Source: Christensenellaceae bacterium (GTDB lineage Bacteria > Bacillota > Clostridia > Christensenellales > Aristaeellaceae). From it: a stretch of DNA of 49,677 nucleotides. Of the stretch, positions 20,978-49,088 are shown piece after piece. Below the pieces are notes generated by a model. That model made no database searches, had not been told where the DNA came from, and saw only the letters and a program-made list of their open reading frames with translations. Positions within the stretch are counted from its first letter, which is position 1. The number at the start of each line of letters is the position of its first letter. The stretch spans positions 1-49,677 of the forward strand of contig JAFLST010000021.1 of assembly GCA_022510815.1 (NCBI GenBank), written 5' to 3'. The translations under genes were made by a program, and so were the position numbers.

Positions 20978-21006
20978 TTGTCCTGCGCGATGGAACCGTG
21001 TATAAT
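20978..21006 (+). promoter_or_regulatory. Promoter for the peptidoglycan-binding lipoprotein
   Basis: TTGTCC (20978-20983) and a perfect TATAAT (21001-21006), spacer 17 bp, leaving a leader of about 58 bases. Confidence 0.75.
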
Positions 21007-21070
21007 AAATAAGCATAGAGTCATTCAAAGGGAAACATCCCTTTTTCAGACGGAAGGAAGGCTGGCCAAC

Positions 21071-23038
21071 ATGAAGAACAAAATCGTCAAGGCGCTGGCG
21101 CTGGGCGGTATGCTGCTCCTGTGCCTGAGCCTTTCCGGATGCTATATTCCCCCGGACGATCTCGCCGGCGACGTGAGCAACCTTGGCGTCGGCTCCAACA
21201 ATCTGCCCTTTGACCCGGTGGTCTATACCGACGCGCCCACCGCTTCGCCCACGCCCACCGCGGCCATGGCGGGCGCTTTCGGAGCACCGCAGACGGCTGA
21301 CAATACCGGCAGCGGCGTTCCGAGCGTCAACTGGGACGACGGCGTTGGCGATCCCATCACGGGCGGCGGCACGTCGCAGACGAACCTGCCCGGTATCGGC
21401 GTTAACAGCGGAACCGGCGCGGCGACCACGAGGCCGAGCATCGGCGTCACCACAGCGAATCCCGGCACCGCCCGTCCGTCTGCGACGAACACCCCCGCGC
21501 CCTCCAGCCTGAAAAAGGGCTCCTCGGGCGATTCGGTGCGGGCGCTGCAGAAGCGCCTCAAGGAGCTGGGCTACTACACCGGCAGCGTGGACGGCGACTT
21601 CGGCGAGAACACCGAGAAGGCCGTGAAAGCCTTCCAGGAGCGCAACGGCCTGACAGTGGACGGCAAGGCTGGCACCAACACGATGGCCAAGCTGAACAGC
21701 TCCTCCGCCGTTAAGGCTGCGACGGCCACCGCCACCCCCAAGAAGACCGCGACGCCCACCCCCAAGCGCACGGCAACGCCGACGCCCCGCAAGACGGCGA
21801 CTCCTACCCCCAAGCCTACGTCCACCCCGAACCTGACCAAGGATATCTATCTGCGGGACGGCTCCTCCGGCAAGGACGTCAAGCGGCTGCAGGAGCGGCT
21901 GATCTCGCTGGGCTGGCTGACGGGCACGGCGAACAGCGACTTCGGCGGCGCGGTGGAAGCGGCGGTCATGGCCTTCCAGAAGAAGACCTCCGGCCTGTAT
22001 GATGACGGCGTGGCGGGCCCTGAAACGCTCAAGGCGCTGTATTCAAGCAACGCGGCCAAGTCCTCCTCCCCGGTGGCCTCCGTGGGCGTGAAGCTCCAGA
22101 CCGGCTCGGAGGGCGACGCTGTCCGGGCGCTGCAGAAGCGCCTCAAGACGCTGGGCTATCTGACGGGAACCCCTGACGGCAGCTATGGCGAGAAGACCAA
22201 GGCGGCGGTGATCGCCTTCCAGACGAACAACGGTCTCAAGGTTGACGGCATCGCGGGCACCAGCACGCTGGACGCCATCTACAGCCAGAACGCCATCAAG
22301 GCCGGTCAGAGCGTCTCGAGCGGCACGACCAATTCCGGCAGCGGCTCCGGCAGCGGCACCTATTCGATCCTGCGCGAAGGTGACAGCGGCGAGGCGGTGC
22401 GGCAGCTCCAGCAAGCGCTCAAGAATCTTGGCTACTATTCCGGCACCGTGGACGGCAACTATGGCAGCGGCACGGTGGACGCGGTGAAGCTGTTCCAGCA
22501 GATGAACGGTCTGCGCGTGGACGGCAAGGCGGGCGAGGCAACTCAGCGCGCGCTCTACGGCACCAGCGCCAAGGTCAATGACACCACGCTGCGGGTCGGC
22601 GACGAGGGCGACGCGGTGACCAACCTGCAGTACGCGCTCTATGAGCTGGGCTACTATGACGGCCAGATCAACGGCATCTATTCCAGTCTGGTCAGCGAGG
22701 CGGTCAAGGCATTCCAGAGCAACAACGGCCTGAAGGCTGACGGTGTGGCGGGAAAGGATACCCTGCAGAAGCTCTATTCCTCCTCGGCCAAGGCGGCGGG
22801 CGCGTCGTCGGTCACCTTCGAGAAGCTGAAGAAGGGCGATTCGGGCAGCGCGGTGGTCGAGATGCAGGACGTACTCAAGGGCCTCGGCTATCTTGCCGAG
22901 ATCACGGGCATCTATGACGACGCGACCTACTGGGCGGTCAAGAGCTTCCAAGAGCGCAACGGCCTCAGCTCGGACGGCATCGCGGGCAATGAGACCCTGA
23001 CCAAGCTCTACTCCGGCAGCGCCGTGAGCATGTATTGA
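21071..23038 (+). CDS. Lipoprotein with six PG_binding_1 domains
   Basis: 655 residues from ATG 21071 (GGAAGGAAGG before it). The signal ends in a lipobox LSGC with Cys24, so the protein is anchored in the membrane. A long Ser/Thr/Pro/Gly region follows, then six peptidoglycan-binding domains of about 70 residues. Each starts L.xGxxGxxVxxLQ and contains LGYYTGSVDGDFGENTEKAV and a GLTVDGKAGTNT-type end. Domains one and two are separated by a (T/K)ATPTPK linker of about 45 residues. No enzymatic domain is present. It probably ties the membrane to the cell wall or acts as a spore/cortex-type binder. Confidence 0.92.
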   Translation: MKNKIVKALALGGMLLLCLSLSGCYIPPDDLAGDVSNLGVGSNNLPFDPVVYTDAPTASPTPTAAMAGAFGAPQTADNTGSGVPSVNWDDGVGDPITGGGTSQTNLPGIGVNSGTGAATTRPSIGVTTANPGTARPSATNTPAPSSLKKGSSGDSVRALQKRLKELGYYTGSVDGDFGENTEKAVKAFQERNGLTVDGKAGTNTMAKLNSSSAVKAATATATPKKTATPTPKRTATPTPRKTATPTPKPTSTPNLTKDIYLRDGSSGKDVKRLQERLISLGWLTGTANSDFGGAVEAAVMAFQKKTSGLYDDGVAGPETLKALYSSNAAKSSSPVASVGVKLQTGSEGDAVRALQKRLKTLGYLTGTPDGSYGEKTKAAVIAFQTNNGLKVDGIAGTSTLDAIYSQNAIKAGQSVSSGTTNSGSGSGSGTYSILREGDSGEAVRQLQQALKNLGYYSGTVDGNYGSGTVDAVKLFQQMNGLRVDGKAGEATQRALYGTSAKVNDTTLRVGDEGDAVTNLQYALYELGYYDGQINGIYSSLVSEAVKAFQSNNGLKADGVAGKDTLQKLYSSSAKAAGASSVTFEKLKKGDSGSAVVEMQDVLKGLGYLAEITGIYDDATYWAVKSFQERNGLSSDGIAGNETLTKLYSGSAVSMY

Positions 23039-30790: not shown

Positions 30791-33508
30791 TTACCGCACC
30801 ATGTCCTGCGTGCGGGCCCAGCCGTCGTCGATCTCCTGCTGATGGCTGGTGGCGTAGGTGCCGATGGCGGTGACCTGCGCCTGCGTGCGCGGGAAGTGGA
30901 TGCACAGGTGGCCGGGGAAGTTGTTGTCCTTGATGTGCTGCACCTCGTGCGGATAGGAGTGGGTCGAGGCAATGAAGATCTCGCCGTTGCCGAAGATGAC
31001 CCACACGGCCTTGGGATTCCATGTGTTGCCGCCGAAGGCCTGCTCCATCTTGGCGGTGTCCGAGGCGGTCAGAGGCTCGGAGTCAGCATGCGCGCCGAGG
31101 GAGAACATGTGCACCTGCCACGAGATGCCCGTCTCGAAATCATAGACCGTCGCGTAGGGATAGGTGCGGGCCTTGGCACGGATGACGGAGTACCAGTTCT
31201 CATACTGGACGTTGGCGGCCGTCACGCGGGTGCTGGAGAGACTCGGCGCGGGAACCAGCGTCGGGGCCGGGGCCGTGGTGGCGGAGGAGCTGGAGCCGGT
31301 GCCCTTCGCGCTGCTGCTGTTGAGCGCCGCGAGGGTCTTCTGGCCCGCGATGCCGTCCACGTTCAGGGCGTTGGCGCGCTGGAAGGCCACCAGCGCCGCG
31401 TAGGTCTGGGAGCCGAAGTTGCCATCCGCCTTGCCGGACAGGTAACCCAGCTCGATCAGCCGCTGCTGCATCGCCTTGACGGAGCTGCTGACGTCGCCCT
31501 GACGAAGGGTCTTGCTGGTCGCAATCTGAATGGTGCTGTCGGTGACGCTGGGCGTTGGCGAGGGAACGGGTGTGGCCGTGGCAGCGGAGGAACCGTACAG
31601 CTTGCTGAGCGTCTTGTTGCCCGCGACGCCGTCGCGCACGAGGCCGTTGGCCTTCTGGAAGGCGTAGACAGCTTCGGCGGTCTTGGTGCCGTAATTGCCG
31701 TCGGCGGAACCCGTCGCGAGGTAACCCAGCGCGATGAGGCGATCCTGCATCAGCTTGACCAGCTCGCCGGTCATGCCCTTGCGCAGGGTGGCGAAGGAGT
31801 CAACCGTGCCGCCCGCAATGTCGCCGCTGTAGGTCACGGCGGTCAGGGAGTACAGCTTGACCTGCGTGTCATAGCCGGCTACGCCGTCCTCCTTCAGGCC
31901 GTTGTAGCGCTGGAAGACGCGGATCGCCGCCACATCGTCGAGCTTGCAGACGCCGTCGACGTTCGCAGAATAGTAGCCGAGCTGGGTCAGGCGCTCCTGC
32001 AGCCTGCGGACCTCATCGCCCGTGGTGCCCTGACGGATCGTGACGACGTTCTCGCGGGTGATGGGTGCGGGCGTGGGCGTCGCGGTAACGGGCGCGGCAG
32101 TCGGGATGGTCGTGACTGCCGACGCGCTTGTGGGAGCCCCGGTGGGCATCTGATCCACAGCCAGCGCGTCATAGCTGAACAGCACGGCGTAGGTGTCCGG
32201 GCCCGCGGCGCCGTCAACCTTGAGGTTGTTTCTGCTCTGGAAATCCTCCAGCGCCTTCTGGCTCGCGGCACCGAACACACCGTCGGCCTTGCCGGACAGA
32301 TAGCCCAGTTCAATCAGCCGCTGCTGGATCAGCCGCGCGTTCTCGCCCGAATCGCCCCGGCGGACCGTGCCGGTGGGAATCTGGAAGGTCGGCGCGGGCG
32401 TGGGAATGGCGGTGGGTTCAGGGGTGCCGGTGGCTTCCGGGGGAACCGCGTCGGTGCCCAGCAGCGCGGTCTGCGTAATCCGGCCGCAGATGCCGTCAGC
32501 CGTCAGGCCGGAGGCCTTCTGGTAGCTGGTGACCGCCGAGCGGGTCTTGGTGTCATAGACACCGGAAATCTCGCCGTCATAGTATCCCAGCTCCTTGAGC
32601 TTGGTCTGCACGTCGCGCACAAGCTGTCCGCGGTCGTTCAGATAGATGTTGATGCCCGTGAGAGGCGGCAGGGTCTTGACGTCAGTCTTGACGCCCTTGG
32701 CGTTCTTGGGTGTGCCGGAGTAGATATGCGCCTGAAGGTTCTGATCCACAACGCCCGTCTCGGGGTATTCGTTCATCTTCTGCAGGGCCATGACCGCCGT
32801 CTGGGTGCCAGCGCCGAACACGCCGTCCGCCGTGCCGGAGAGGAAGCCCAGCTCGATCAGCGCCTCCTGCAGGGCCTGAACGCGGCTGCCCGTTGAGCCG
32901 AGCTGCAGGACAGTGTAGCTGTCCGTGTCCTGCGCGGGGGCGAGGGTCGGGCTTGCGGTAGGCGTCGCGGTGGGCTTGACGATGGTCTTGAGGTTCACAT
33001 ACTTCTTGAGGCACCAGCCGGAGACGCCGTTGTAGGTCACCTCGGCATAGGAGCCGGAGATGCTTGCCACGGTGACCGTCGCGCCCTTCGGGATGGAGGC
33101 CAGCCGGCGGCTGGAGGTGGACTTTGCCGTGCGCAGGTTGACCTGACTGTTGGTGGTCGTCTCGTAGGGGTAGCCCTCAGCCGTCGTCTGCTGCACCGGC
33201 GCGATGGTGGCCTGCGCGTCAGGCGCGTCGTTGAGGTACTGCTTGACAATATAGCCGCTCACGCTGTTGTAGCGCACCTTGTAATAATTCCCCGATTCCC
33301 CGGTCACTTCGACCGCGGCGCCGTTGGGGATTTTGGCCAGCACAGCCGAGGAGGAGGACGCGCTCCGGCGCAGGTTCACCTGAGCGTTGGTCGTGGTGGT
33401 GTAGGGATAGGCCGCTGCCAGCGCGGCCGCGCAGATCATCATCAGCGCGATGACCACGGCGATCAGGGCGATCCCGTGCAGCTTCAAGGCCTTCTTCGTA
33501 TGGCGCAT
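30791..33508 (-). CDS. Secreted SH3/peptidoglycan-binding protein with an unassigned C-terminal domain
   Basis: 905 residues. A signal or membrane anchor (about 12-33) is followed by two SH3b domains (about 38-95 and 113-172; each has QVNLR and a GYIVKQYLN/GWCLKKYVN end). Six PG_binding_1 domains come next, separated by Thr/Pro linkers. The last 150 residues (from NVQYENWYSVIRAKA) form a separate domain with WQVHMFSLGAHADSEPLT, AVWVIFGNGEIFIASTHSYP and NNFPGHLCIHFPRT. The repeated His and the HLCIHF motif look catalytic, faintly like the SHGCIR motif of L,D-transpeptidases, but the family is not one I can name. Confidence 0.85.
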   Translation of the reverse strand: MRHTKKALKLHGIALIAVVIALMMICAAALAAAYPYTTTTNAQVNLRRSASSSSAVLAKIPNGAAVEVTGESGNYYKVRYNSVSGYIVKQYLNDAPDAQATIAPVQQTTAEGYPYETTTNSQVNLRTAKSTSSRRLASIPKGATVTVASISGSYAEVTYNGVSGWCLKKYVNLKTIVKPTATPTASPTLAPAQDTDSYTVLQLGSTGSRVQALQEALIELGFLSGTADGVFGAGTQTAVMALQKMNEYPETGVVDQNLQAHIYSGTPKNAKGVKTDVKTLPPLTGINIYLNDRGQLVRDVQTKLKELGYYDGEISGVYDTKTRSAVTSYQKASGLTADGICGRITQTALLGTDAVPPEATGTPEPTAIPTPAPTFQIPTGTVRRGDSGENARLIQQRLIELGYLSGKADGVFGAASQKALEDFQSRNNLKVDGAAGPDTYAVLFSYDALAVDQMPTGAPTSASAVTTIPTAAPVTATPTPAPITRENVVTIRQGTTGDEVRRLQERLTQLGYYSANVDGVCKLDDVAAIRVFQRYNGLKEDGVAGYDTQVKLYSLTAVTYSGDIAGGTVDSFATLRKGMTGELVKLMQDRLIALGYLATGSADGNYGTKTAEAVYAFQKANGLVRDGVAGNKTLSKLYGSSAATATPVPSPTPSVTDSTIQIATSKTLRQGDVSSSVKAMQQRLIELGYLSGKADGNFGSQTYAALVAFQRANALNVDGIAGQKTLAALNSSSAKGTGSSSSATTAPAPTLVPAPSLSSTRVTAANVQYENWYSVIRAKARTYPYATVYDFETGISWQVHMFSLGAHADSEPLTASDTAKMEQAFGGNTWNPKAVWVIFGNGEIFIASTHSYPHEVQHIKDNNFPGHLCIHFPRTQAQVTAIGTYATSHQQEIDDGWARTQDMVR

Positions 33509-37207: not shown

Positions 37208-37269
37208 TCAACAAAGGCGGGGGCCCGGTATGAGAGCCGTGCCCCTTCTTTTACGGGAGGATGATGAAC

Positions 37270-39213
37270 ATGAAGCGCATTGCGATGCTTTTCGGCGGCT
37301 GCGGCGGCCGGGTGGCGGAGGCTCTTGCCTTTGCGGCCTGTGCGGGCGCGCTGTCCGTGCCTGACATGCGCCTGATGTTCATCGACTCCGACGGCGAGGA
37401 AGCCCACACGGCCCGGGCGCTGTCGCTGCTGCGGGATTATGAGCGCGTCCGGGCGCTGTATCAGGACAGCCCGTCTCACGGGGAGTTCCAGACCGTTCTG
37501 ACTGCCGGGCGCTGGCCCGATCATCTGCCCGGGCATGTCGCGACCCTGCGGCAGTGGATTCAGGAGGACACGGACGACGCGCTGCTGATGCGGGCGCTCT
37601 TTGCCCCGGAGACCGCCGACCGTGATATGCGCCGGGGCTTTCAGGGCGATCAGGCGCTGGCGGCAACGGTGCTGGCAGGTCTGCTGACGGAATCGGAGAG
37701 CGACCCTGACGATGCGCTGCGGCGGCTGATGGACGAGCTGGATGGCGAGGATGCGCAGATCGTGCTGGTGGGCTCCGTCTGCGGCGGCACCGGCGGCGCT
37801 GGCATCCCGGCAATGGCGGCGCATCTGCGGGAGCGACTGGGCAGCCGGGCGCACCTGTCGGCAGTTCTGCTGCTGCCCTATGGCGCGGGGGAGGAGACCT
37901 CCGACGCGAGAGCGGCGCTGCGGCGGTATGGCGCGGAGGGGCTCGACATGCCCGTCTGCCTGCTGGGCTTGCCGGAGGGCGCGCGCAGCAGTGAGCTATC
38001 GGACGCTGCAAGGCTGAACGAGTGGCTGGCTGTCCACGCTCTGGACTGGCTGATGCGTCACGACGCGTCCGATCACGCCGCCTATACCTATCGGGCGGAG
38101 AATGCCGGTCTGACGTGGGGAATGTTCGGCCGGGAAGCGGCGCTGTTCCGCTCCGGATATATCCGGCTGATGAAGACGGCGGCGCTGTTCCGCCTGACTC
38201 TGACCGGAGAGCTGACCGAGCGGCTTTCGCGGCCCTCGGGGCTGCGGGACAGGCTGTCCGGCTGGTATGCGGCCTGCTGCAAGGGTGCGCTGAAGCTCCC
38301 GGATGAGGAGCGGCAGGCGCTGCTGGAGGATTTGCGGGCGCTGACGAATCTGCTGGACGGCGCGCTTGGGTGGATGGAACAGCTTTCCGCGACGCTGCCG
38401 CCCCAGCTTCGCTATGCCAGCGTGATGGCCGGTGCCTTTGATGCCGCCAAGGCCAACGAGCGGGCTGTGGCCGACCTGTCGGGACAGCTTGAGGTGCTGA
38501 TCCGGGAGGCGGAGGAGAGCGGTATGGCCCACGAGACGGTCGTTCACCGCAGCGGCACCGCGGAGGAAAATGAGGCCGAGCAGGAGCAGCGCCGGCTGGC
38601 CACGATGCAGGAGCGCCTGCGAGAGCTGACCCAGACACAGGCGGCGCTGAACCGTCGCCTTGGCGGGCGCGAAACCATTGACATGCTGCGGGGCCTGCTG
38701 GTCGAATGCAGGAATGAGGCTGAGTCCGTCCGGGAGCAGGAGAAGGAAGCCCGCCGCCGCATTGATCAGGCCGAGGCCGTCGCGACCCCGCAGGAGCAGC
38801 ATCTGATCCATACCGCCCGCACGAAGCTCAAGCCCATGCAGCGGCACCTCGCCATGCAGGACGCGCGGATCGCCCGGGTGGAGCGGGATCTGGAGGCGGC
38901 ACAGGCGGATGCGCTCCGCTGGCAGGCTCCCGTGCTCGGCGGGCAGGACGCGCCGTCGCCGGGGCTTTTCTCGACGGAGGCCCTGCACAGCCTTTGGCTC
39001 GACGCCCGGGGTGATGGGCGGCGCAAGGAGCAGAAGCAGCGCCAGCAGGAGGCGGTCGCGGCATTCCCGGCGCTGGCGGTGATGGACCAGCCGGACGGCG
39101 CGACGGTCAAGCGGGTGATGCAGGGACTGAGCAAGGTGCGCGCGGAGGACGAGCATCCGCTGGCCTGTCTGCTGTCCCGGACGATGGCGCTGGTGCTGGA
39201 GGAGGATGCGTGA
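37270..39213 (+). CDS. Tubulin/FtsZ-superfamily-like protein with C-terminal coiled coil
   Basis: 647 residues. I use ATG 37270, nine bases after GGGAGG; two earlier ATGs touch the ribosome site. The N-terminus MKRIAMLFGGCGGRVAEALAF has a glycine loop like the T1 loop of tubulins (GxCGxx). Residues 167-178 (GSVCGGTGGAGI, followed by PAMAAHLRERLG) match the tubulin/FtsZ signature loop T4 (GGGTGxGxxP plus helix). The T1-T4 distance is about 80 residues longer than in FtsZ, as in large tubulin-like bacterial proteins. Residues of about 420-570 are highly charged and helical, probably a coiled coil. It is coupled to the next gene by overlap. GTP binding and polymerisation are inference. Confidence 0.7.
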   Translation: MKRIAMLFGGCGGRVAEALAFAACAGALSVPDMRLMFIDSDGEEAHTARALSLLRDYERVRALYQDSPSHGEFQTVLTAGRWPDHLPGHVATLRQWIQEDTDDALLMRALFAPETADRDMRRGFQGDQALAATVLAGLLTESESDPDDALRRLMDELDGEDAQIVLVGSVCGGTGGAGIPAMAAHLRERLGSRAHLSAVLLLPYGAGEETSDARAALRRYGAEGLDMPVCLLGLPEGARSSELSDAARLNEWLAVHALDWLMRHDASDHAAYTYRAENAGLTWGMFGREAALFRSGYIRLMKTAALFRLTLTGELTERLSRPSGLRDRLSGWYAACCKGALKLPDEERQALLEDLRALTNLLDGALGWMEQLSATLPPQLRYASVMAGAFDAAKANERAVADLSGQLEVLIREAEESGMAHETVVHRSGTAEENEAEQEQRRLATMQERLRELTQTQAALNRRLGGRETIDMLRGLLVECRNEAESVREQEKEARRRIDQAEAVATPQEQHLIHTARTKLKPMQRHLAMQDARIARVERDLEAAQADALRWQAPVLGGQDAPSPGLFSTEALHSLWLDARGDGRRKEQKQRQQEAVAAFPALAVMDQPDGATVKRVMQGLSKVRAEDEHPLACLLSRTMALVLEEDA

Positions 39214-42200
39214 TGCCGGAACTGATCTTTTTGCCCGATCGCGACGGCGTCGACCGGCTGTCCTCCGGCGCGGGACTGACGCGCATGGAAGGCGCTGCGG
39301 ATGCGGCGCTGCGGGATTTTTCCGGACGGATGCTGGCCCGCGGGGTGTCGGCCTCTGCCGATGAAATGGAAACGGCTGCGTGGCGCGGCGCGCTGGCGAC
39401 GGCCCTGCTGATGAATGTCTGGGACGGCGTGGGGACGGCCCTGCGCATCCTGACCATGGACGAGCATACCTCGCCCTTTTCCGCCATGGTGATGGCGTCC
39501 CGGCCCGTTAAGGAGCGGCAGGAGCCGCTGCGCCTCGTGCTGCTGGAAAAGGACGGCATGCGGCGGGTGCTGGGGCTGGCGTCCCGGCGCAAGGGGCTGA
39601 TCCCTGCCGCCGATCCGGGGAACCTGAGCGAGCTGCTGCCTGAGCGCGTCGCGTGGTACGACCGGAAGGCAAAGCGCTTCCTCGACCCTACGCCCATGCT
39701 GAACGAGCGGGACGGCGAGCTGCTGGTTCGCCGCCTGCATCTGCTGCGCGTTCAGAGCCCCGAGGTCAGCGCCTTCGTGGCCGATCTGGTGAAGGAGCAG
39801 GGCCGTGAGAGCCATGCCGTCGCGCAGTATGAAAAGGATGCGCTGGACAGGCTGTTCCTGCGCGTCAGGGCTGTTATCGGTCTGGAAGGCGAAGGCTTTG
39901 CGGCGCTGACCACGCAGGAGGAGCGCTATACCGCCCCGGAGGAGGAACCGCTGCTGCGCTGCTTTACCGATGCGCCGGGCCTTGCCGGGGAATCCCTCGG
40001 CGTGCAGACGACGTGGCTCTGGCAGGGCATTCCCTTTGCGCGAAGCAGCGCGGCGCTGGGTCTCCGGGGGACGAATCATCCCCGGGAGCAGGAGGCGCTG
40101 GACGCCATTGCGCGGGAGCTGTCGCTGCTGGACGAGCATTCCCGGCGCTGGCAGAGGGACGCGGCGGAGCGGATCCGTGCGTGGCTGGATGCCGTGGGCA
40201 CGCGGCGCGTCTTTTCTCCGGTGGCAAAGGAAACCATTGAAAACCGCTGCCATGCTCTCGAGGAGGCCGCCCGGCGGCCGCAGGAGACCGTGGTGCTTAC
40301 ATGGCCGTGGGACGAGAAATCCGATGCGGCGAAGCTTTTGCTGCGGGAATCCCTTGGCGAGGACTTTGCGTTCATGGGCTCGCCCTTCTCTGCCCGGCTG
40401 ACCCGGCTGGAGGGCGCGGCCAATGCGCTGGGTGATACGGCCCTGCGGGTGAGCTGCCGTCTGGGTGAGGATACCTGCCTGCCGCCGCTGTCGCCGGAGC
40501 TGGCCGCGTGCCTGTACCGGGTGCCGGAGGGTCAGGGCTTCGTGTCCGAGCAGCTGTACCTGATACCCGAGGAGGACGGCGATATCACGGCGTCCTTCCT
40601 GCTGCGGGGCACGGGAGAACTGGCGCTGGTGCGCCGCTACAAGCCTGAGGAGGTCGTCACGCTGGCCCCGGATGAGGTGCCGACCGTGGCGGTCTGGCCC
40701 TGCATTCCCATGGCTGACGAGCGCTGGAAGGCCTATTTCGTGTACCTGCACGGCGCGGGGCTGACCGTGAAGGCGCTCTCGGAGGACGAATGGGTCGGGG
40801 ATTCGCCGGAGGGACAGGACTTTGATATCCTGCGCACGACGGCTTATCCCGCGTGCCTGACGGTGTATCGCGGAGACGAGTGTCTCGGCGCGCTGCCCAA
40901 TGCGCTGCCCCCGATGGCGATAGAATCCGCCGGAGCCGCGGTGATCGCGCTGGACATCGGCGCATCGGGCATTTCCGCGATGATGCGGCTGGGCGAGACC
41001 GTCGAGCCGCTGACCGGGCCCTGCCTGCTGCGGACGCTGCTCTCCGGCGGGGATGCCCCTGTGGCCGAGGAATTCATGGCCCCGGAGGAGATCACAGGCC
41101 TGCTGCCCACCGCGCTGCTGCTCTCGGGCGGCGGCTCGGAGGCGATCAGGGATGGGCGGCTGTTTGCCCCCGCGGAACCCTCTGAAGTGCTGGCATGCGG
41201 TCAGGCGCTGCTGTCCGGGAGCCTGTCATGGCGGAGCGACGCGGCGGGCGCCCGGGCACGGGAGCTGCTTTTGCACCAGCTTATGCTGCAGGCTTCCCTC
41301 GCGGCGCTGCTGCGGGGCGCGTCGAGCGTGTCGTGGCGGCTGGCACTGCCGGGCAGCGGCGGTCAAACGCTCTGGCAGCGCTGGATTGATCCTGCCAACG
41401 CGCTGGCCGAGGTGGTGGCGCAGGAGACAGGTCTGCCGCTGAACCTGGCCGTGAGGCCCGTAACGTGGGCACCGGCCTATCGGGCGCTGGGCGCTCATCT
41501 GCGGGATGAGGCTGTCCGGGGCAGCTTTGTCGCGCTGGATTTCAGCGGCGGCGGTACGAGCGCGCATCTGTGGCTGCGGACGATGAACAAGCCCGTGGGC
41601 GGCTATAGCCTTCAGGGCGGCATGCAGGCGCTCCTGCTGAGCGCGATGAACGAGCATCCGGCCCTGCTGACCGAGGATTTTGCCGACTGCCCCGACGAGG
41701 CGCTGCGCAAGGATCTGGCGGACACGCTGGCGGAGCTCAGGCATGGCGGCGAGGCGCTGCGGCAGATGGACCGGGCGCTGCTGCTGCTCGACCTGCTGCT
41801 GGACAGGCATGCCCCGGCCATGACCGCGCACATGAACGCCCGGTACGCCGCTGGACGCATGACGTGGCTGCAGGCGCTGCTGCTGGAGCACTTCGCCATG
41901 GCGCTGCTGCTGACGGGTCTCCTGCTGGAACAGGCTGCCGGAGACGCGATGCGCAGCCATCTGCTGCCCGAGGAGCTGACGTTCTGCCTGTCGGGCCGGG
42001 GGAGCCACCTGCTCTCCGCCATGCCCAGCGTGCTGGAGAACAGTCTTGCCCGCTTTGTCCGCGCAGCGATGAACGAGCGCCATCCGGTGCGTTCGCTGCT
42101 TTTGCGCCAGAGCCCCGAGTCCAAGCTGGATGTCTGCCGTGGCCTGTGCCAGATGTCGCTGCTCTCCTTCGACGCCGGGGAGGAAGAATCCATGCCGCCC

Positions 42201-42464
42201 GTCAAAACCAGCGAATCCTTCGCCGAGCTGGTCATGCGGTTCCTGACGCTGCTGCGCGCGGCTTATCCGCAGGTCTGTGAGCTGCTGCATCCGGGCCTGT
42301 TCAGCCCGCAGGGCACGCTGACCGTGGCAGGCGAAGCGAGCGTGCGCAGGGCGGCGGCGCAGCGCTACTTGGACGGCGAGGATATCCCGTCCTCCCTGTC
42401 CGCGGCACTGCGGGATTTACGTCTGCCCGTAGAGCCGATTCAGCCTTCTGCGCCGGTCGACTGA
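39213..42464 (+). CDS. Large protein with C-terminal actin/Hsp70-type (ASKHA) ATPase domain
   Basis: 1083 residues; ATG 39213 overlaps the tubulin-like stop (TGATG) and has GGAGGAGG upstream. Residues 1-570 are mixed alpha/beta with no motif I know. From about 575 the ASKHA order appears: VIALDIGASGISAMM (phosphate-1, Asp581), RPVTWAPAYRALGAHL (connect-1-like), FVALDFSGGGTSAHLWL (phosphate-2, Asp776) and FCLSGRGSHLL (adenosine loop, about 924-934). The gaps of about 195 and 150 residues are those of Hsp70. It therefore should bind ATP. I cannot place it in a named family; large SrfB-like ASKHA proteins are one group to compare. The partner is surely the coupled tubulin-like protein. Confidence 0.65.
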   Translation: MPELIFLPDRDGVDRLSSGAGLTRMEGAADAALRDFSGRMLARGVSASADEMETAAWRGALATALLMNVWDGVGTALRILTMDEHTSPFSAMVMASRPVKERQEPLRLVLLEKDGMRRVLGLASRRKGLIPAADPGNLSELLPERVAWYDRKAKRFLDPTPMLNERDGELLVRRLHLLRVQSPEVSAFVADLVKEQGRESHAVAQYEKDALDRLFLRVRAVIGLEGEGFAALTTQEERYTAPEEEPLLRCFTDAPGLAGESLGVQTTWLWQGIPFARSSAALGLRGTNHPREQEALDAIARELSLLDEHSRRWQRDAAERIRAWLDAVGTRRVFSPVAKETIENRCHALEEAARRPQETVVLTWPWDEKSDAAKLLLRESLGEDFAFMGSPFSARLTRLEGAANALGDTALRVSCRLGEDTCLPPLSPELAACLYRVPEGQGFVSEQLYLIPEEDGDITASFLLRGTGELALVRRYKPEEVVTLAPDEVPTVAVWPCIPMADERWKAYFVYLHGAGLTVKALSEDEWVGDSPEGQDFDILRTTAYPACLTVYRGDECLGALPNALPPMAIESAGAAVIALDIGASGISAMMRLGETVEPLTGPCLLRTLLSGGDAPVAEEFMAPEEITGLLPTALLLSGGGSEAIRDGRLFAPAEPSEVLACGQALLSGSLSWRSDAAGARARELLLHQLMLQASLAALLRGASSVSWRLALPGSGGQTLWQRWIDPANALAEVVAQETGLPLNLAVRPVTWAPAYRALGAHLRDEAVRGSFVALDFSGGGTSAHLWLRTMNKPVGGYSLQGGMQALLLSAMNEHPALLTEDFADCPDEALRKDLADTLAELRHGGEALRQMDRALLLLDLLLDRHAPAMTAHMNARYAAGRMTWLQALLLEHFAMALLLTGLLLEQAAGDAMRSHLLPEELTFCLSGRGSHLLSAMPSVLENSLARFVRAAMNERHPVRSLLLRQSPESKLDVCRGLCQMSLLSFDAGEEESMPPVKTSESFAELVMRFLTLLRAAYPQVCELLHPGLFSPQGTLTVAGEASVRRAAAQRYLDGEDIPSSLSAALRDLRLPVEPIQPSAPVD

Positions 42465-42578
42465 CAGGCACGCGCCCTCACGCCGGAGCATCCGCCCCAG
42501 ACAGGTGCGGCAGATAGGCTGGTGCCGGATGATGAGGCCCGCCGGACGCTGCTGCCCGCAAAGAAGACATGTCTGCAT
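42417..42578 (-). CDS. Gin (CsfB)-like small zinc protein
   Basis: 53 residues starting MQTCLLCGQQRPAGLIIRHQ; ATG 42578 follows AGGGAGGG. The pattern CxxC, GLxI, ICRTCL and a basic tail ending RRRRLNRLYGQ fits Gin, a zinc-ribbon anti-sigma factor that holds back sigma-G (and sigma-E) during sporulation. Length is close to, though shorter than, the roughly 64 residues I recall for the Bacillus protein. The gene overlaps the end of the ASKHA gene on the opposite strand by 48 bases, so their 3' ends are antisense. If correct it implies a spore-former. Confidence 0.55.
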   Translation of the reverse strand: MQTCLLCGQQRPAGLIIRHQPICRTCLGRMLRREGACLSVDRRRRLNRLYGQT

Positions 42579-42676
42579 GCCGATCCCTCCCTGCTGATAA
42601 GATGGCTTCCGGAGATTTCCAGCATACGCGCTTTGGGGCGCCCGGTGCGCGACAGGTGAAAATTCCATCTTCACCC

Positions 42677-42897: not shown

Positions 42898-42983
42898 GGA
42901 GCGGTATCGAAGTGGTCATAACGGCCCTGACTCGAAATCAGGTGTACCTCACGGTACCGTGGGTTCAAATCCCACCCGCTCCG
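42898..42983 (+). tRNA. tRNA-Ser (anticodon CGA)
   Basis: 86 bases. The acceptor stem GGAGCGG pairs with CCGCTCC; discriminator G. The anticodon arm CCTGA-CTCGAAA-TCAGG gives CGA, reading UCG. A long class II variable arm (GTACCTCACGGTACC) and a T arm with GTGGG-TTCAAAT-CCCAC complete it. CCA is not encoded. Confidence 0.95.
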
Positions 42984-42989
42984 CACTCG

Positions 42990-43017
42990 CCCGCCTGTTG
43001 CAGCAGGCGGGTTTTTT
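42990..43017 (+). terminator. Terminator of the tRNA-Ser transcript
   Basis: CCCGCCTG and CAGGCGGG (perfect, 6-base loop) followed by six T. Confidence 0.9.
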
Positions 43018-43034
43018 CGTGCGGATATACCTTG

Positions 43035-44228
43035 TTAGGCCACTTGATCCTTTTCGGCCCCATCTGTCCCTATGCCTAAACCCGCCAACATGGCATCGGC
43101 AGACATAAGCTTGGAATGGTAATCCAGATGTGCGTAAATGTTCGCCGTCGTGGAGAAATCGCTGTGCCCCAGCCACTCTTGAATCTGCTTCATGGACACG
43201 CCGTTCGCCAGCAGGAGGCTGGCACAGGTATGCCGCAGATCGTGAAAGCGAATCACGCGCATATTGTGCTTCTTCAACATCTTGGGGAGCGCAGAGGTTA
43301 GGTAGGCGGGCTTGACCCGCTCGCCGATCTCGTTTACGCAGATGTAACCGAGAAAATCAGTGCAGTACGAGCGACCGCAAAGCCTGCGATTGATCCCCTG
43401 TTCCTCGTGCAGTTGAAGCAGCATTTCCCGGAAAAGGGGTACAAGCGGCAGTGTGCGCATACTCGACTTCGTTTTCGTCGTATCTGACGCAATCTCCATA
43501 CGCTTTCCGTCAATGACACAGCTTGCGACAGTGTGCTTGATCGTGATCGTATTCGCCGCAAAGTCTATGGCATCCCATTTGAGACCAACCACTTCGCTGC
43601 GTCGCAGGCCGTAGAAAGCCGCAAGCATGACGGGCAGTTCCAATGGAGTGTCCTTGACAATGGCGAATAACTGATTGATCTCATCACTGTCATAGAAGCT
43701 GGCAACGTAGCGATCTTTCTTCGGACGCTCAACTTTATCTGCCGGGTTCGCTGGTAGCAAATCCATTTTCACAGCGTATTTGAGGGCCTTGTGAATGATC
43801 GCGTGGTAGTGAATGACCGTGTTGGCGCTGACGCGCTCAAGCTGTGCCGTGTAAAACTCCTGAATATCGCTTGCCTGCAACTCCGTCAGCGTAATCCACT
43901 TGTGCCGAAAGTATGGGAGGATAACGCCATCGAGCATTCCAGAATAGGAGCTGTACGTTGCGGGCTTGATACTGCTCTTTACCACAGCAAGCCATTTGGT
44001 CAGAAAGTCCGAAAAAAGAGTGTCTTGGGTGATCGCTGCTGTCGCTGGTGCTGTTTCTGGTATAAAGGTCTTTCGTGCTTCCATGAGCATAGCTTCCGCA
44101 CGTTTCTTGTTTCCTTTTACCGTCAGGCCTGTGGGAAGCCATTTGGTCTTGCGCTGATTGTCCGACCCTTTATAGCTCAGAACGATATAGAACATACCCT
44201 TTTTTTCTTGCAGATGTCCTGCTACCAT
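43035..44228 (-). CDS. Tyrosine-family site-specific integrase
   Basis: 397 residues. An N-terminal arm-binding region (FYIVLSYKGSDNQRKTKWLP) and a core-binding SAM-like domain (about 65-165) precede the catalytic domain: Arg209 in FYGLRRSEVVGLKW, His339 and Arg342 in FHDLRHTCAS, His365 in WLGHSDFSTTANIYAHL and nucleophile Tyr375. This is the layout of Tn916-type conjugative element and phage integrases. Its 3' end faces the tRNA-Ser gene 52 bases away, the usual place for an element integrated near a tRNA. Codon use and GC are lower than in the genes to the left. ATG 44228 follows GAAGGAGGA. Confidence 0.96.
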   Translation of the reverse strand: MVAGHLQEKKGMFYIVLSYKGSDNQRKTKWLPTGLTVKGNKKRAEAMLMEARKTFIPETAPATAAITQDTLFSDFLTKWLAVVKSSIKPATYSSYSGMLDGVILPYFRHKWITLTELQASDIQEFYTAQLERVSANTVIHYHAIIHKALKYAVKMDLLPANPADKVERPKKDRYVASFYDSDEINQLFAIVKDTPLELPVMLAAFYGLRRSEVVGLKWDAIDFAANTITIKHTVASCVIDGKRMEIASDTTKTKSSMRTLPLVPLFREMLLQLHEEQGINRRLCGRSYCTDFLGYICVNEIGERVKPAYLTSALPKMLKKHNMRVIRFHDLRHTCASLLLANGVSMKQIQEWLGHSDFSTTANIYAHLDYHSKLMSADAMLAGLGIGTDGAEKDQVA

Positions 44229-47140: not shown

Positions 47141-47662
47141 ATGGAAGTTGTCAAGGCGCCAGACAACAGCCGAGAAGAATTGCTGACCCACTGGGTAGAA
47201 TGTCATCAAAAGCGTTTGCTGAATTTGTGCTATATGGTTCTGCAGGATCGTGAGCTTGCACGCGATGCAGTGCAGGAGACATTTCTGAAAGCGTATAAAG
47301 CCATGAGCACGTTTCGCGGTGATAGTAATGAGCTGACATGGCTGACCAGAATCGCACTGAACATCTGTCGAAGCATGAAGCGCAGTGCGTGGGCACGACA
47401 CGAAAAACGTGACGTGACTCCGGAAGACATTGTCCGTACTGCCACAAATGGCTTCAATCAGAACGCGATAGATCTGGCGAACGCAATCTTGCAGTTGCCA
47501 GATAAGTATAAGGAAGTCGTGATGCTGTACTATTTTCAGCGAATGACAATGGAGGACATTGCTCATGTGGAAGGTACAACAAAGTCATTGATTTCAAGAA
47601 GAATTCACAAAGCTCATGCACTGCTGCATGACATTTTAGGAAAGGAGTATCTATATGGATAA
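47141..47662 (+). CDS. ECF-type sigma factor
   Basis: 173 residues from ATG 47141 after GAGGAGGTG. Region 2 is RLLNLCYMVLQDRELARDAV then QETFLKAYKAMSTFRGD and LTWLTRIALNICRS. Region 4 is LPDKYKEVVMLYYFQRMTME then DIAHVEGTTKSLISRRIHKA. It directs RNA polymerase to special promoters and is held in check by the overlapping membrane protein. Its own control region holds paired 10-bp repeats, which suggests autoregulation or another regulator. Confidence 0.93.
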   Translation: MEVVKAPDNSREELLTHWVECHQKRLLNLCYMVLQDRELARDAVQETFLKAYKAMSTFRGDSNELTWLTRIALNICRSMKRSAWARHEKRDVTPEDIVRTATNGFNQNAIDLANAILQLPDKYKEVVMLYYFQRMTMEDIAHVEGTTKSLISRRIHKAHALLHDILGKEYLYG

Positions 47663-49088
47663 TTACGAGAAGAATGCTCATCTCGTAGAGGAGGCAGTAG
47701 AGCAGAAATGCGCCTTTCTCCAGCCTGATCCTTTCCTTGCGCAGCGTGTGCTTAACGCAGCGAACGAGAAAGGTGAAGTAAAAATGAAGAGGAAGATTTC
47801 TGTTGGTTTGGCGGTTATTCTGGCTTTGATGCTTATGAGCGTAACCGCACTTGCTGCTGCATTGCTGTGGCAGCAACAGGTTGTTCCTATGAAGGAGATC
47901 GAACAGACCGAAGGTGACTATGCTGGGTGGCCGATCAGCCAGAAGCAAGTTTTGATTCGTGCTTTGATCGACTCTGGCGTCATAACCGCAGGCAATGAAA
48001 CCGATCGCCTGTTTGATGAAGCTACAAATGAGGCTGAGAAGCATACCATTGCAGATCAGATTTTGCTGACGCTGACCGGACAAACCGATGTTAAGGAGAT
48101 CAGCGTTGACATAATTACATACGCGGTCATGGGGCCTACTGATACCTGGACTGCTGAACAGCGCGTATGGTGGCAGGATGTCACGCAGCAGTTCTACGGA
48201 GATGATGGCGCACCTGATGTGCTGATCAATGCCAGCCCTGAAGTAATCTCCGAAGCAGATGCGATCCGAATCGCAAAGGATGCACTTGTGACGGCATACG
48301 GCTGGTCTCAGAGCACTCTCGATAATGCTCTGGTTGTCGCTGATTTGTATGTGACGGAGCAGCGCCCTGATTATAAGCGGTGGAATGTGCAATTCAAATT
48401 CTATCGTGAGGGCAGCGATAACTATTTAGAGCGCGTCTATGTAGTTATTGTGGACGAGAATGGACAGGTCGTTGATGATCCTGATATGGGCATTATTCGG
48501 CCACAGGCCAGCCTTGAAGCAGAAACTCAGTTGGGCCGTACAAATTCTGCATTGTATCAAACCATTTACGCGATGGCCGGGCGCATCAATTCTGATCTTG
48601 CCTCCTTCGGTGTCTGGCCACTGGAGCTTCAATCCGAGTATTCGGAGATTGTTGCTCCTCAGGTGCGCGCTATTGTGGAAAGCGGAGATCTGACCCCCCT
48701 TATTAACGGTGAAGGACCTGACCTGTTCGTGATTGCTGCTTCCAAGTATACCTATGGGGTGCCGAGCGATGCTGATATGGAACAGGCCCCCGCATTGGCA
48801 ATCGCAAAGAATGCGATGATGGAGAAATTCGGTTTGGAGAGCAGCATTGTTGATCTATACGGTAACATTTCCGTATACTTCGACATTACTGATCCGAGCG
48901 CGCCACTGTGGAAATTTGTGTTCAGCCCTTCTTCAAGGCGCGCTTTCCCAGGTGGGTATGATAATCCGCAATCTCAACTGCTGTACAAGGTGGAGATCAA
49001 TGCGCAGACGGGAACCGTTGAATGCGCAGAGGAGTTTGAGTTCCAAATCTTGGGAAACGATCTCGATTATATGCTGCGCTTATACTAA
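47655..49088 (+). CDS. Membrane protein, probable anti-sigma factor/sensor for the ECF sigma
   Basis: 477 residues; its start overlaps the sigma gene by 8 bases. Residues 1-45 are charged and cytoplasmic (CAFLQPDPFLAQRVLNAA), followed by one helix (about 48-70) and a large outside part of about 400 residues. That part has repeated blocks of the ISEADAIRIAKDAL then NVQFKF..YVVIVDENGQVV kind, similar to PepSY-like or DUF4179-type sensor regions. The gene order and topology fit an anti-sigma factor. No zinc HxxxCxxC motif is seen, so the mode of sigma binding is unclear. Confidence 0.75.
   Translation: MDNYEKNAHLVEEAVEQKCAFLQPDPFLAQRVLNAANEKGEVKMKRKISVGLAVILALMLMSVTALAAALLWQQQVVPMKEIEQTEGDYAGWPISQKQVLIRALIDSGVITAGNETDRLFDEATNEAEKHTIADQILLTLTGQTDVKEISVDIITYAVMGPTDTWTAEQRVWWQDVTQQFYGDDGAPDVLINASPEVISEADAIRIAKDALVTAYGWSQSTLDNALVVADLYVTEQRPDYKRWNVQFKFYREGSDNYLERVYVVIVDENGQVVDDPDMGIIRPQASLEAETQLGRTNSALYQTIYAMAGRINSDLASFGVWPLELQSEYSEIVAPQVRAIVESGDLTPLINGEGPDLFVIAASKYTYGVPSDADMEQAPALAIAKNAMMEKFGLESSIVDLYGNISVYFDITDPSAPLWKFVFSPSSRRAFPGGYDNPQSQLLYKVEINAQTGTVECAEEFEFQILGNDLDYMLRLY

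Follow-up and report, generated by a model that had tools for sequence, protein, structure and literature searches.

We analysed a 49,677-nucleotide stretch of DNA from a Christensenellaceae bacterium (contig JAFLST010000021.1 of assembly GCA_022510815.1; Aristaeellaceae in the GTDB lineage); this whole stretch is called the window below. On its plus strand lie two coupled genes, here named A and B. Gene A encodes a divergent protein with a predicted tubulin-like domain and gene B a large protein with a predicted actin/Hsp70-type (ASKHA) domain. The two are conserved as a pair and are sometimes fused. Their features are as follows.

37270 to 39213, plus strand: gene A, 647 amino acids, tubulin superfamily, relative of FtsZ-like 1 (Tubulin_2) proteins, from open reading frame (ORF), ribosome-binding site, profile and model
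37261 to 38154, plus strand: predicted tubulin/FtsZ-like fold of A, residues 1-298 of the 650-residue frame, from the structure model
37294 to 37308, plus strand: T1-like loop GGCGG, residue 12 of the 650-residue frame (9 from ATG 37270); family pattern GG[TS]G
37780 to 37803, plus strand: T4-like loop CGGTGGAG, residue 174 (171 from ATG 37270); family pattern FGGTGA[SA]G
38416 to 38907, plus strand: long helices of a coiled-coil-like insert in A, residues 386-549, from the model
39213 to 42464, plus strand: gene B, 1083 amino acids, actin/Hsp70 superfamily (ASKHA), from ORF, start, profile and model
39351 to 40928, plus strand: N-terminal region of B (residues 48-573), modelled with confidence; W149, P160, P426, P497 and W506 are conserved
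40929 to 42197, plus strand: predicted ASKHA fold of B, residues 574-996, from the structure model
40950 to 40970, plus strand: phosphate-1 motif LDIGASG, with D582
41535 to 41561, plus strand: phosphate-2 region LDFSGGGTS, degenerate in the window
41988 to 42005, plus strand: adenosine-site motif LSGRGS, with G929; family GGNGS or AGNGG
42120 to 42143, plus strand: fifth, connect-2-like motif, residues 971-978; family PK.EVA.G, window ESKLDVCRG

Translation of A most likely begins at ATG 37270, behind a ribosome-binding site (GGGAGG, 37255-37260); close homologues start with MKR. An in-frame ATG at 37261 gives a frame of 650 residues, and residues of A are numbered in that frame (subtract 3 for the frame from 37270). 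For B we favour the ATG at 39213, with AGGAGG at 39200-39205; the GTG at 39210, chosen in the ORF list, gives 1084 residues and sets the numbering of B. The stop codon of A and the start codon of B have one base in common (TGATG). An earlier note on this DNA had the coordinates, the reading frames, the motif places and the one-base overlap right, as judged from the ORFs, the ribosome-binding sites and the TGATG junction, and the two loops of A lie where it put them, at residues 9 and 171 from ATG 37270.

The structure model supports a tubulin GTPase-domain fold for the first 298 residues of A. Helices 386-549 and 572-644 follow, forming a coiled coil and then a helical C-terminal region, as in Tubulin_2. 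The insert is missing from homologues of about 540 residues, seen as a profile gap at about 400-575 in L077, L080 and L082-L085. The residues of T1 and T4 are invariant across 56 aligned homologues of A, an invariance that is partly selection since the locus scan itself used T1 and T4 patterns. The GGTG of T4 is kept in the window (CGGTGGAG), and its T1 (GGCGG) departs from the family's GG[TS]G. Against Pfam, A gave matches under the cut-off to PF00091 (E-value 8.5e-4) and PF13809 (Tubulin_2; E-value 0.0064), the latter scoring 16.2 bits against a cut-off of 27, and a six-frame search at an E-value of 0.001 gave no PF13809 match to A. In profile-to-profile alignment with hhalign, A matched Tubulin_2 with 97.1% probability (E-value 6.9e-11), Tubulin_2 in turn matched the FtsZ profile with 97.1% (E-value 5.2e-11), and cross controls stayed at 0.2%. 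Searching PDB sequences with a profile of A gave no match, and single-protein searches with A gave weak coiled-coil and importin matches only, or nothing. We therefore call A a divergent relative of the FtsZ-like 1 (FtsZl1) proteins rather than a filed member of Tubulin_2.

For B, the model supports an actin/Hsp70 nucleotide-binding fold, so that the two folds proposed in the earlier note agree with the models, and no other fold was seen for either protein. The hhalign comparison of B with MreB gave 97.7% probability (E-value 1.9e-12; cross controls 0.2%). Among the best 60 of 100 matches in a profile search of B against PDB, all belonged to ASKHA families, with FtsA chains at an E-value of 0.0023; matches to PF14450 in relatives of B were weak (best E-value 0.013). 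The same note had listed four ASKHA motifs. All four are present (D582, about 752, D777 and G929), and because their residues are conserved in 51 aligned homologues, with D582 and G584 invariant, they represent more than chance. The third, phosphate-2, is damaged in the window: DFSGGGTSA is without the family's Gly779 and Asp784, most of the family having D[IVLM]G[GA]GT.D or something near it. This damage makes an active ATPase less probable for the window's B and leaves the assignment of an ASKHA fold as it was. B is an ASKHA protein for which there is no family model. A Pfam match to SulA (E-value 0.034) was rejected as chance, being present in only one of 20 members.

The resemblance of B to Hsp70 raises the question whether it serves A as a dedicated chaperone or assembly factor, acting in its folding, loading or disassembly, rather than as a structural partner. 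Besides MreB, structures of Hsp70 and Hsp110 match the model of B, and Hsp70 chains are among the best 60 of 100 PDB profile matches. The arrangement of the protein argues otherwise: the ASKHA domain is C-terminal and ends at about residue 996 of 1084, leaving some 90 residues and no Hsp70-type substrate-binding domain behind it. In addition, there is no HSP70 Pfam match, and the top Pfam match in distant relatives is MreB_Mbl. We consider the chaperone explanation unlikely.

That A and B belong together is supported by their linkage. In the window's family, 120 genomes were scanned for A, which was found in 32 of them, the window's included, and 31 loci were fetched from genomes other than the window's. 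B was adjacent to A in 27 of these loci and fused to it in three, and one locus was cut by a contig end; all 30 loci that could be judged were therefore linked. Homologues that never occur together would have refuted the earlier note; this was not the outcome, and a conserved pair is supported. Two species of one genus carry full fusions of 1732 and 1722 residues in one ORF, each holding all of B. In the third fusion (L057:9137-11827), A is joined to the N-terminal part of B only, and in one of the 27 adjacent loci (L048:10443-13628) B is broken into three frames; we regard these two cases as signs of loss in single lineages.

A second set of named loci was obtained from the best 80 of 430 candidates, giving 79 loci; the T1 and T4 patterns used favour A proteins with intact loops in this set, and L067, L071, L074, L075, L079, L081, L086, L087 and L133 are counted in both sets. 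Here, B was adjacent in 53 loci and 4.2 kb away in one; 18 loci lacked it, and 7 could not be judged. The loci with adjacent B came from Bacillota, Cyanobacteria, an acidobacterium and a Chloroflexi-labelled contig, and all 18 loci without it were labelled Selenomonadaceae, Selenomonadales or Quinella. We searched for B elsewhere in the genomes of 22 of the 25 named loci without B (18 with room for it and 7 at contig ends; L076, L095 and L145 were left out). Full-length B was found in 16 of 17 searched selenomonad genomes whose A locus lacks it. For all five contig-end loci searched, the genome matched B; in two the matches were no more than fragments, and in a third the match broke off at 997 of 1121. 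The flanks (up to 1.5 kb) of seven such selenomonad B loci, one with 0.2 kb upstream only, held no A.

At the level of the phylum, 398 genomes were surveyed, with at most two or three candidates scored per genome. Among the matches listed, A and full-length B occurred in the same two genomes. The remaining B-profile matches listed were short, mostly about 40-120 positions near phosphate-2, and lay in frames of about 190-510 residues, the size of MreB and FtsA. None of the 10 genomes in this survey with PF13809 above its cut-off had a full-length B among the matches listed; B is thus not tied to Tubulin_2 in general. Two side observations concern B. Three cyanobacterial loci have a second, shorter B paralogue (730-994 residues) downstream of the first (L096:17412-19604, L106:16928-19912 and L115:18323-20521). 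In L065, from a genome of the window's phylum (G367), B groups with Selenomonadaceae on the tree and the locus has neighbour clusters in common with L118, which could reflect horizontal transfer of the whole module.

Clustering of neighbouring genes at 112 loci revealed recurrent envelope genes beside relatives of A. A lipoprotein gene lies near A in 33 of these loci (type c1) or 24 (type c3), and a small membrane protein is encoded directly upstream of A in 29 (c2), 16 (c5) or 12 (c11), mostly with three or four spans in a hydropathy scan. The lipoproteins have a lipobox cysteine, invariant in 11 c1 rows, and the motifs VDVYWDATxSM and IIVTDL, which we take to resemble the metal-ion-dependent adhesion site (MIDAS) of vWA domains; Pfam reported no vWA domain in the four lipoproteins scanned. 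Profile comparison indicated that c1 and c3 lipoproteins are homologous between lineages (98.3%). Membrane proteins of Clostridia and of the other lineages agree in position and in rough number of spans. In the cyanobacterial loci L093 and L096 the lipoprotein gene is on the opposite strand. OmpA, LytR-CpsA-Psr and YrbL neighbours were each seen at single loci among those scanned. At one locus (L094:7458-11386) A follows genes for LytR-CpsA-Psr, a YrbL-like protein and a small membrane protein and has no B next to it; the B of that genome lies by itself at another place.

Five cyanobacterial plasmid records carry B, each time under the label 'hypothetical protein' or 'unknown protein'. In the record of the Gloeothece plasmid it is a 'hypothetical protein' and is preceded by a gene annotated as 'tubulin-like doman-containing protein'; further upstream are genes sized like the lipoprotein and the membrane protein. 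B was also confirmed on a Picosynechococcus plasmid, where the same size pattern is seen, all genes being hypothetical and the place of A assigned by size only. This plasmid location, together with a ParA gene some 10 kb distant in one record, could point to a DNA segregation or positioning system, a hybrid of TubZ and ParM. The pair is chromosomal as well (for example in Arthrospira, L093), with many contigs of metagenome-assembled genomes being of unknown replicon; no DNA-binding gene was found among the neighbours scanned with Pfam (10 + 6), and lipoprotein and membrane genes, rather, recur beside the pair. We therefore regard segregation as a very improbable task.

Another explanation that draws on the plasmid loci is biological conflict. 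Kaur et al. 2020 (PMC7159879) described GTPase-centred GAP1-N2 systems in which tubulin homologues and HSP70 proteins take part, so that the earlier note was too strong in holding a tubulin-actin pair to be without precedent. These systems resemble ours in bringing tubulin- and HSP70-superfamily proteins into one class of system near the membrane that includes vWA proteins. They differ in being centred on a GTPase and GAP1, and in that the paper's detailed section treats their tubulin and HSP70 themes as non-overlapping. A defence function for A and B would fit these components, the cyanobacterial plasmids and the annotated tubulin-like gene before B in the one named record. Against it, no P-loop GTPase, and hence not the linked TRAFAC GTPase of GAP1-N2 systems, was encountered among the eight proteins of the window that were scanned, namely A, B and six of their neighbours. 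Such systems are described in the same paper as nearly absent from Cyanobacteria, where the pair occurs in many loci. In PADLOC, only the coiled-coil stretch of A gave matches, which were weak, and B gave none. Finally, phage records yielded no match to B, and no relative of A was confirmed in a single scan of viral contigs. A defence system is in our judgement quite improbable.

The neighbouring genes point to the envelope, and it is on this basis that we place the pair there. With somewhat better than even confidence, we propose that A and B are the cytoplasmic halves of one FtsZ-FtsA-like envelope machine. In its ancestral form, A would bind GTP and assemble or switch. B would be an ASKHA ATPase that binds A through direct contact; its large N-terminal platform may tie A to the small multi-span membrane protein, and so tether it, with ATP setting the timing. 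Across the membrane, a link to the vWA-like lipoprotein would couple the nucleotide state inside to an envelope task. The modelled folds, the motifs, the co-occurrence, fusion and order of the genes and the envelope genes beside relatives are observed, and contact, assembly, tethering, the direction of coupling and the task are inferred from them. In the window's clade what remains is A and B by themselves, joined into a single protein in one genus.

The history of the nucleotide-binding motifs bears on this scheme. The GGTG of T4 is kept by A in 60 of 72 pairs and lost in 12; on the tree, these 12 join the pairs of the window and of two near relatives in a single clade of 15 (support 84). In the T4-less pairs, B is also without the full phosphate-2 motif in 10 of 12 and without the G[NGC] adenosine pattern in 11 of 12. 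Among the 60 T4-intact pairs, phosphate-2 is lost in three and the adenosine pattern in four; the window belongs here, with T4 kept, phosphate-2 damaged (DFSGGGTSA) and GRG at the adenosine site. The association of losses in A and B is striking at face value (Fisher p 3e-8 and 5e-9; 72 rows). We did not take it as independent support because two or three changes on the tree suffice to explain it and a paired test could not reach significance, and because the tree was a quick one with a long-branch warning and a support of only 84 for the 15-row clade. The motif erosion is one or two histories, not statistical proof.

Several observations weigh against the proposed envelope machine. A direct profile comparison of A with FtsZ gave only 0.2%, so that profiles tie A to FtsZ only by way of Tubulin_2. 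The pair is patchy, with no match to A in 88 of the 120 family genomes. No homology was detected between the c11 membrane proteins of Clostridia and those of c2 or c5 from other lineages. Contact between A and B, a polymer and nucleotide binding are all conjectural. With T4 lost in 12 of the 15 A proteins of the window's clade and phosphate-2 damaged in the window's B, a mechanism driven by nucleotide hydrolysis may no longer be valid there. The lipoprotein and membrane genes were not beside the pair in that clade. Of 26 family genomes searched with profiles, the same 8 held both the c3 lipoprotein and the c11 membrane gene; the 14 genomes tested from the window's group, its own included, gave neither. 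Four genomes outside the clade (G107, G002, G028 and G046) were negative in both searches as well. One of them, G028, has a c1 lipoprotein beside the pair, yet was missed by the lipoprotein profile; the profiles can thus miss divergent copies, and loss in the window's clade is not proved. It nevertheless seems likely from these searches that the membrane genes were lost there.

The bare pair, the eroding nucleotide-site motifs and the undetected membrane genes together suggest a scaffold that is less dependent on nucleotide, and the window holds a stripped-down, possibly nucleotide-poor form of the module. An alternative is that in this clade the pair is a relic of the envelope machine that is itself decaying towards loss. 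Erosion of the T1, T4, phosphate-2 and adenosine motifs in one clade and the missing membrane partners are what decay would produce, and outside the clade or at its edge B is found in three ORFs (L048) or cut short (L057). Decay is harder to reconcile with long open frames in nearly all members, an intact start and overlap, confident structure models, and fusion, not loss, in one genus. We hold it to be rather unlikely. Returning to the envelope machine, a broader claim can be made more tentatively, and at less than even confidence, lowered somewhat by the relative missed in G028: that it represents a second widespread bacterial tubulin-actin cytoskeleton, distinct from FtsZ-FtsA, spanning the envelope and encoded on chromosomes and plasmids. 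In the window's lineage it would have been reduced to a bare, partly fused pair that is giving up its nucleotide sites and becoming a nucleotide-independent scaffold. Its members would be the vWA lipoprotein, the small membrane protein, the tubulin-like protein and the large, previously unrecognised ASKHA family.

To our knowledge, bacterial partnerships of tubulin- and actin-type proteins are described chiefly from cell division, with FtsZ and FtsA as the classic example. As with A and B, a tubulin-fold and an actin-fold protein are encoded side by side there and belong near the envelope, a precedent that the earlier note had passed over. Compared with FtsA, B has about 570 extra N-terminal residues, A belongs to a different branch of the superfamily from FtsZ, and the window's genome encodes a separate, ordinary FtsZ. 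The PilM-PilN-PilO-PilP genes of type IV pili likewise combine an actin-like cytoplasmic protein with a membrane protein and a lipoprotein; unlike the A-B pair they have no tubulin part, and no pilus family was found among the neighbours scanned with Pfam.

The closest described relatives of A are the FtsZl1 proteins (Tubulin_2, PF13809), which Makarova and Koonin in 2010 (PMC2875224) reported from vWA-rich operons, cyanobacteria included, and which PMC9871819 refers to as divergent FtsZ-like sequences. Those operons, as outlined in the main text of PMC2875224, hold vWA-like and membrane proteins, which are likewise found beside relatives of A, one of which has OmpA. They differ from the window in that its A, unlike members, scores under the Pfam cut-off and in that a vWA gene was neither found beside its pair nor detected in its genome. 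The main text of PMC2875224 makes no mention of Hsp70, FtsA or MreB and names no actin/Hsp70 partner; B may be among the unnamed associated families of its supplement (A1-A2 and B1-B9), unrecognised as ASKHA. A tubulin-ASKHA pair was not found described in the open-access literature (subscription papers, preprints and supplements lay outside the search), and a tested job for FtsZl1 proteins was not found in the literature searched.

Other features of the window were as follows.

42417 to 42674, minus strand: Gin-like protein (PF10764, 27.0 bits, exactly the cut-off), overlapping the 3' end of B on the opposite strand
42898 to 44228: tRNA-Ser (cga), then a phage-type integrase, the integrase on the minus strand
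30791 to 33508, minus strand, and 20978 to 23038, plus strand: two large proteins, each with six peptidoglycan-binding stretches; the first has two SH3 stretches in addition and scores above the SleB model cut-off
47141 to 49088: a Sigma-70-family factor gene overlapping by 8 bases a 477-residue gene without a Pfam match, possibly encoding its anti-sigma factor

Upstream of the pair are galE, a nucleotidyl-transferase gene and a sugar-transferase gene. Directly downstream, a mobile element appears to have been inserted, as indicated by the tRNA-Ser and integrase. The Gin-like gene had prompted the idea of a spore-stage role. It is a cluster of one among the 112 clustered loci (ORFs of at least 70 residues considered), and relatives of the pair are found in Cyanobacteria and Selenomonadaceae; the spore hypothesis was dropped.

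If real, a second, independent tubulin-actin pairing in very different bacteria would supply the FtsZ-like 1 proteins with a partner and with a task that can be tested. Laboratory genetics could reach the relatives in Arthrospira, Microcystis and, for B, on Picosynechococcus plasmids. The window's clade offers a natural series of two nucleotide-binding proteins that erode but remain together.

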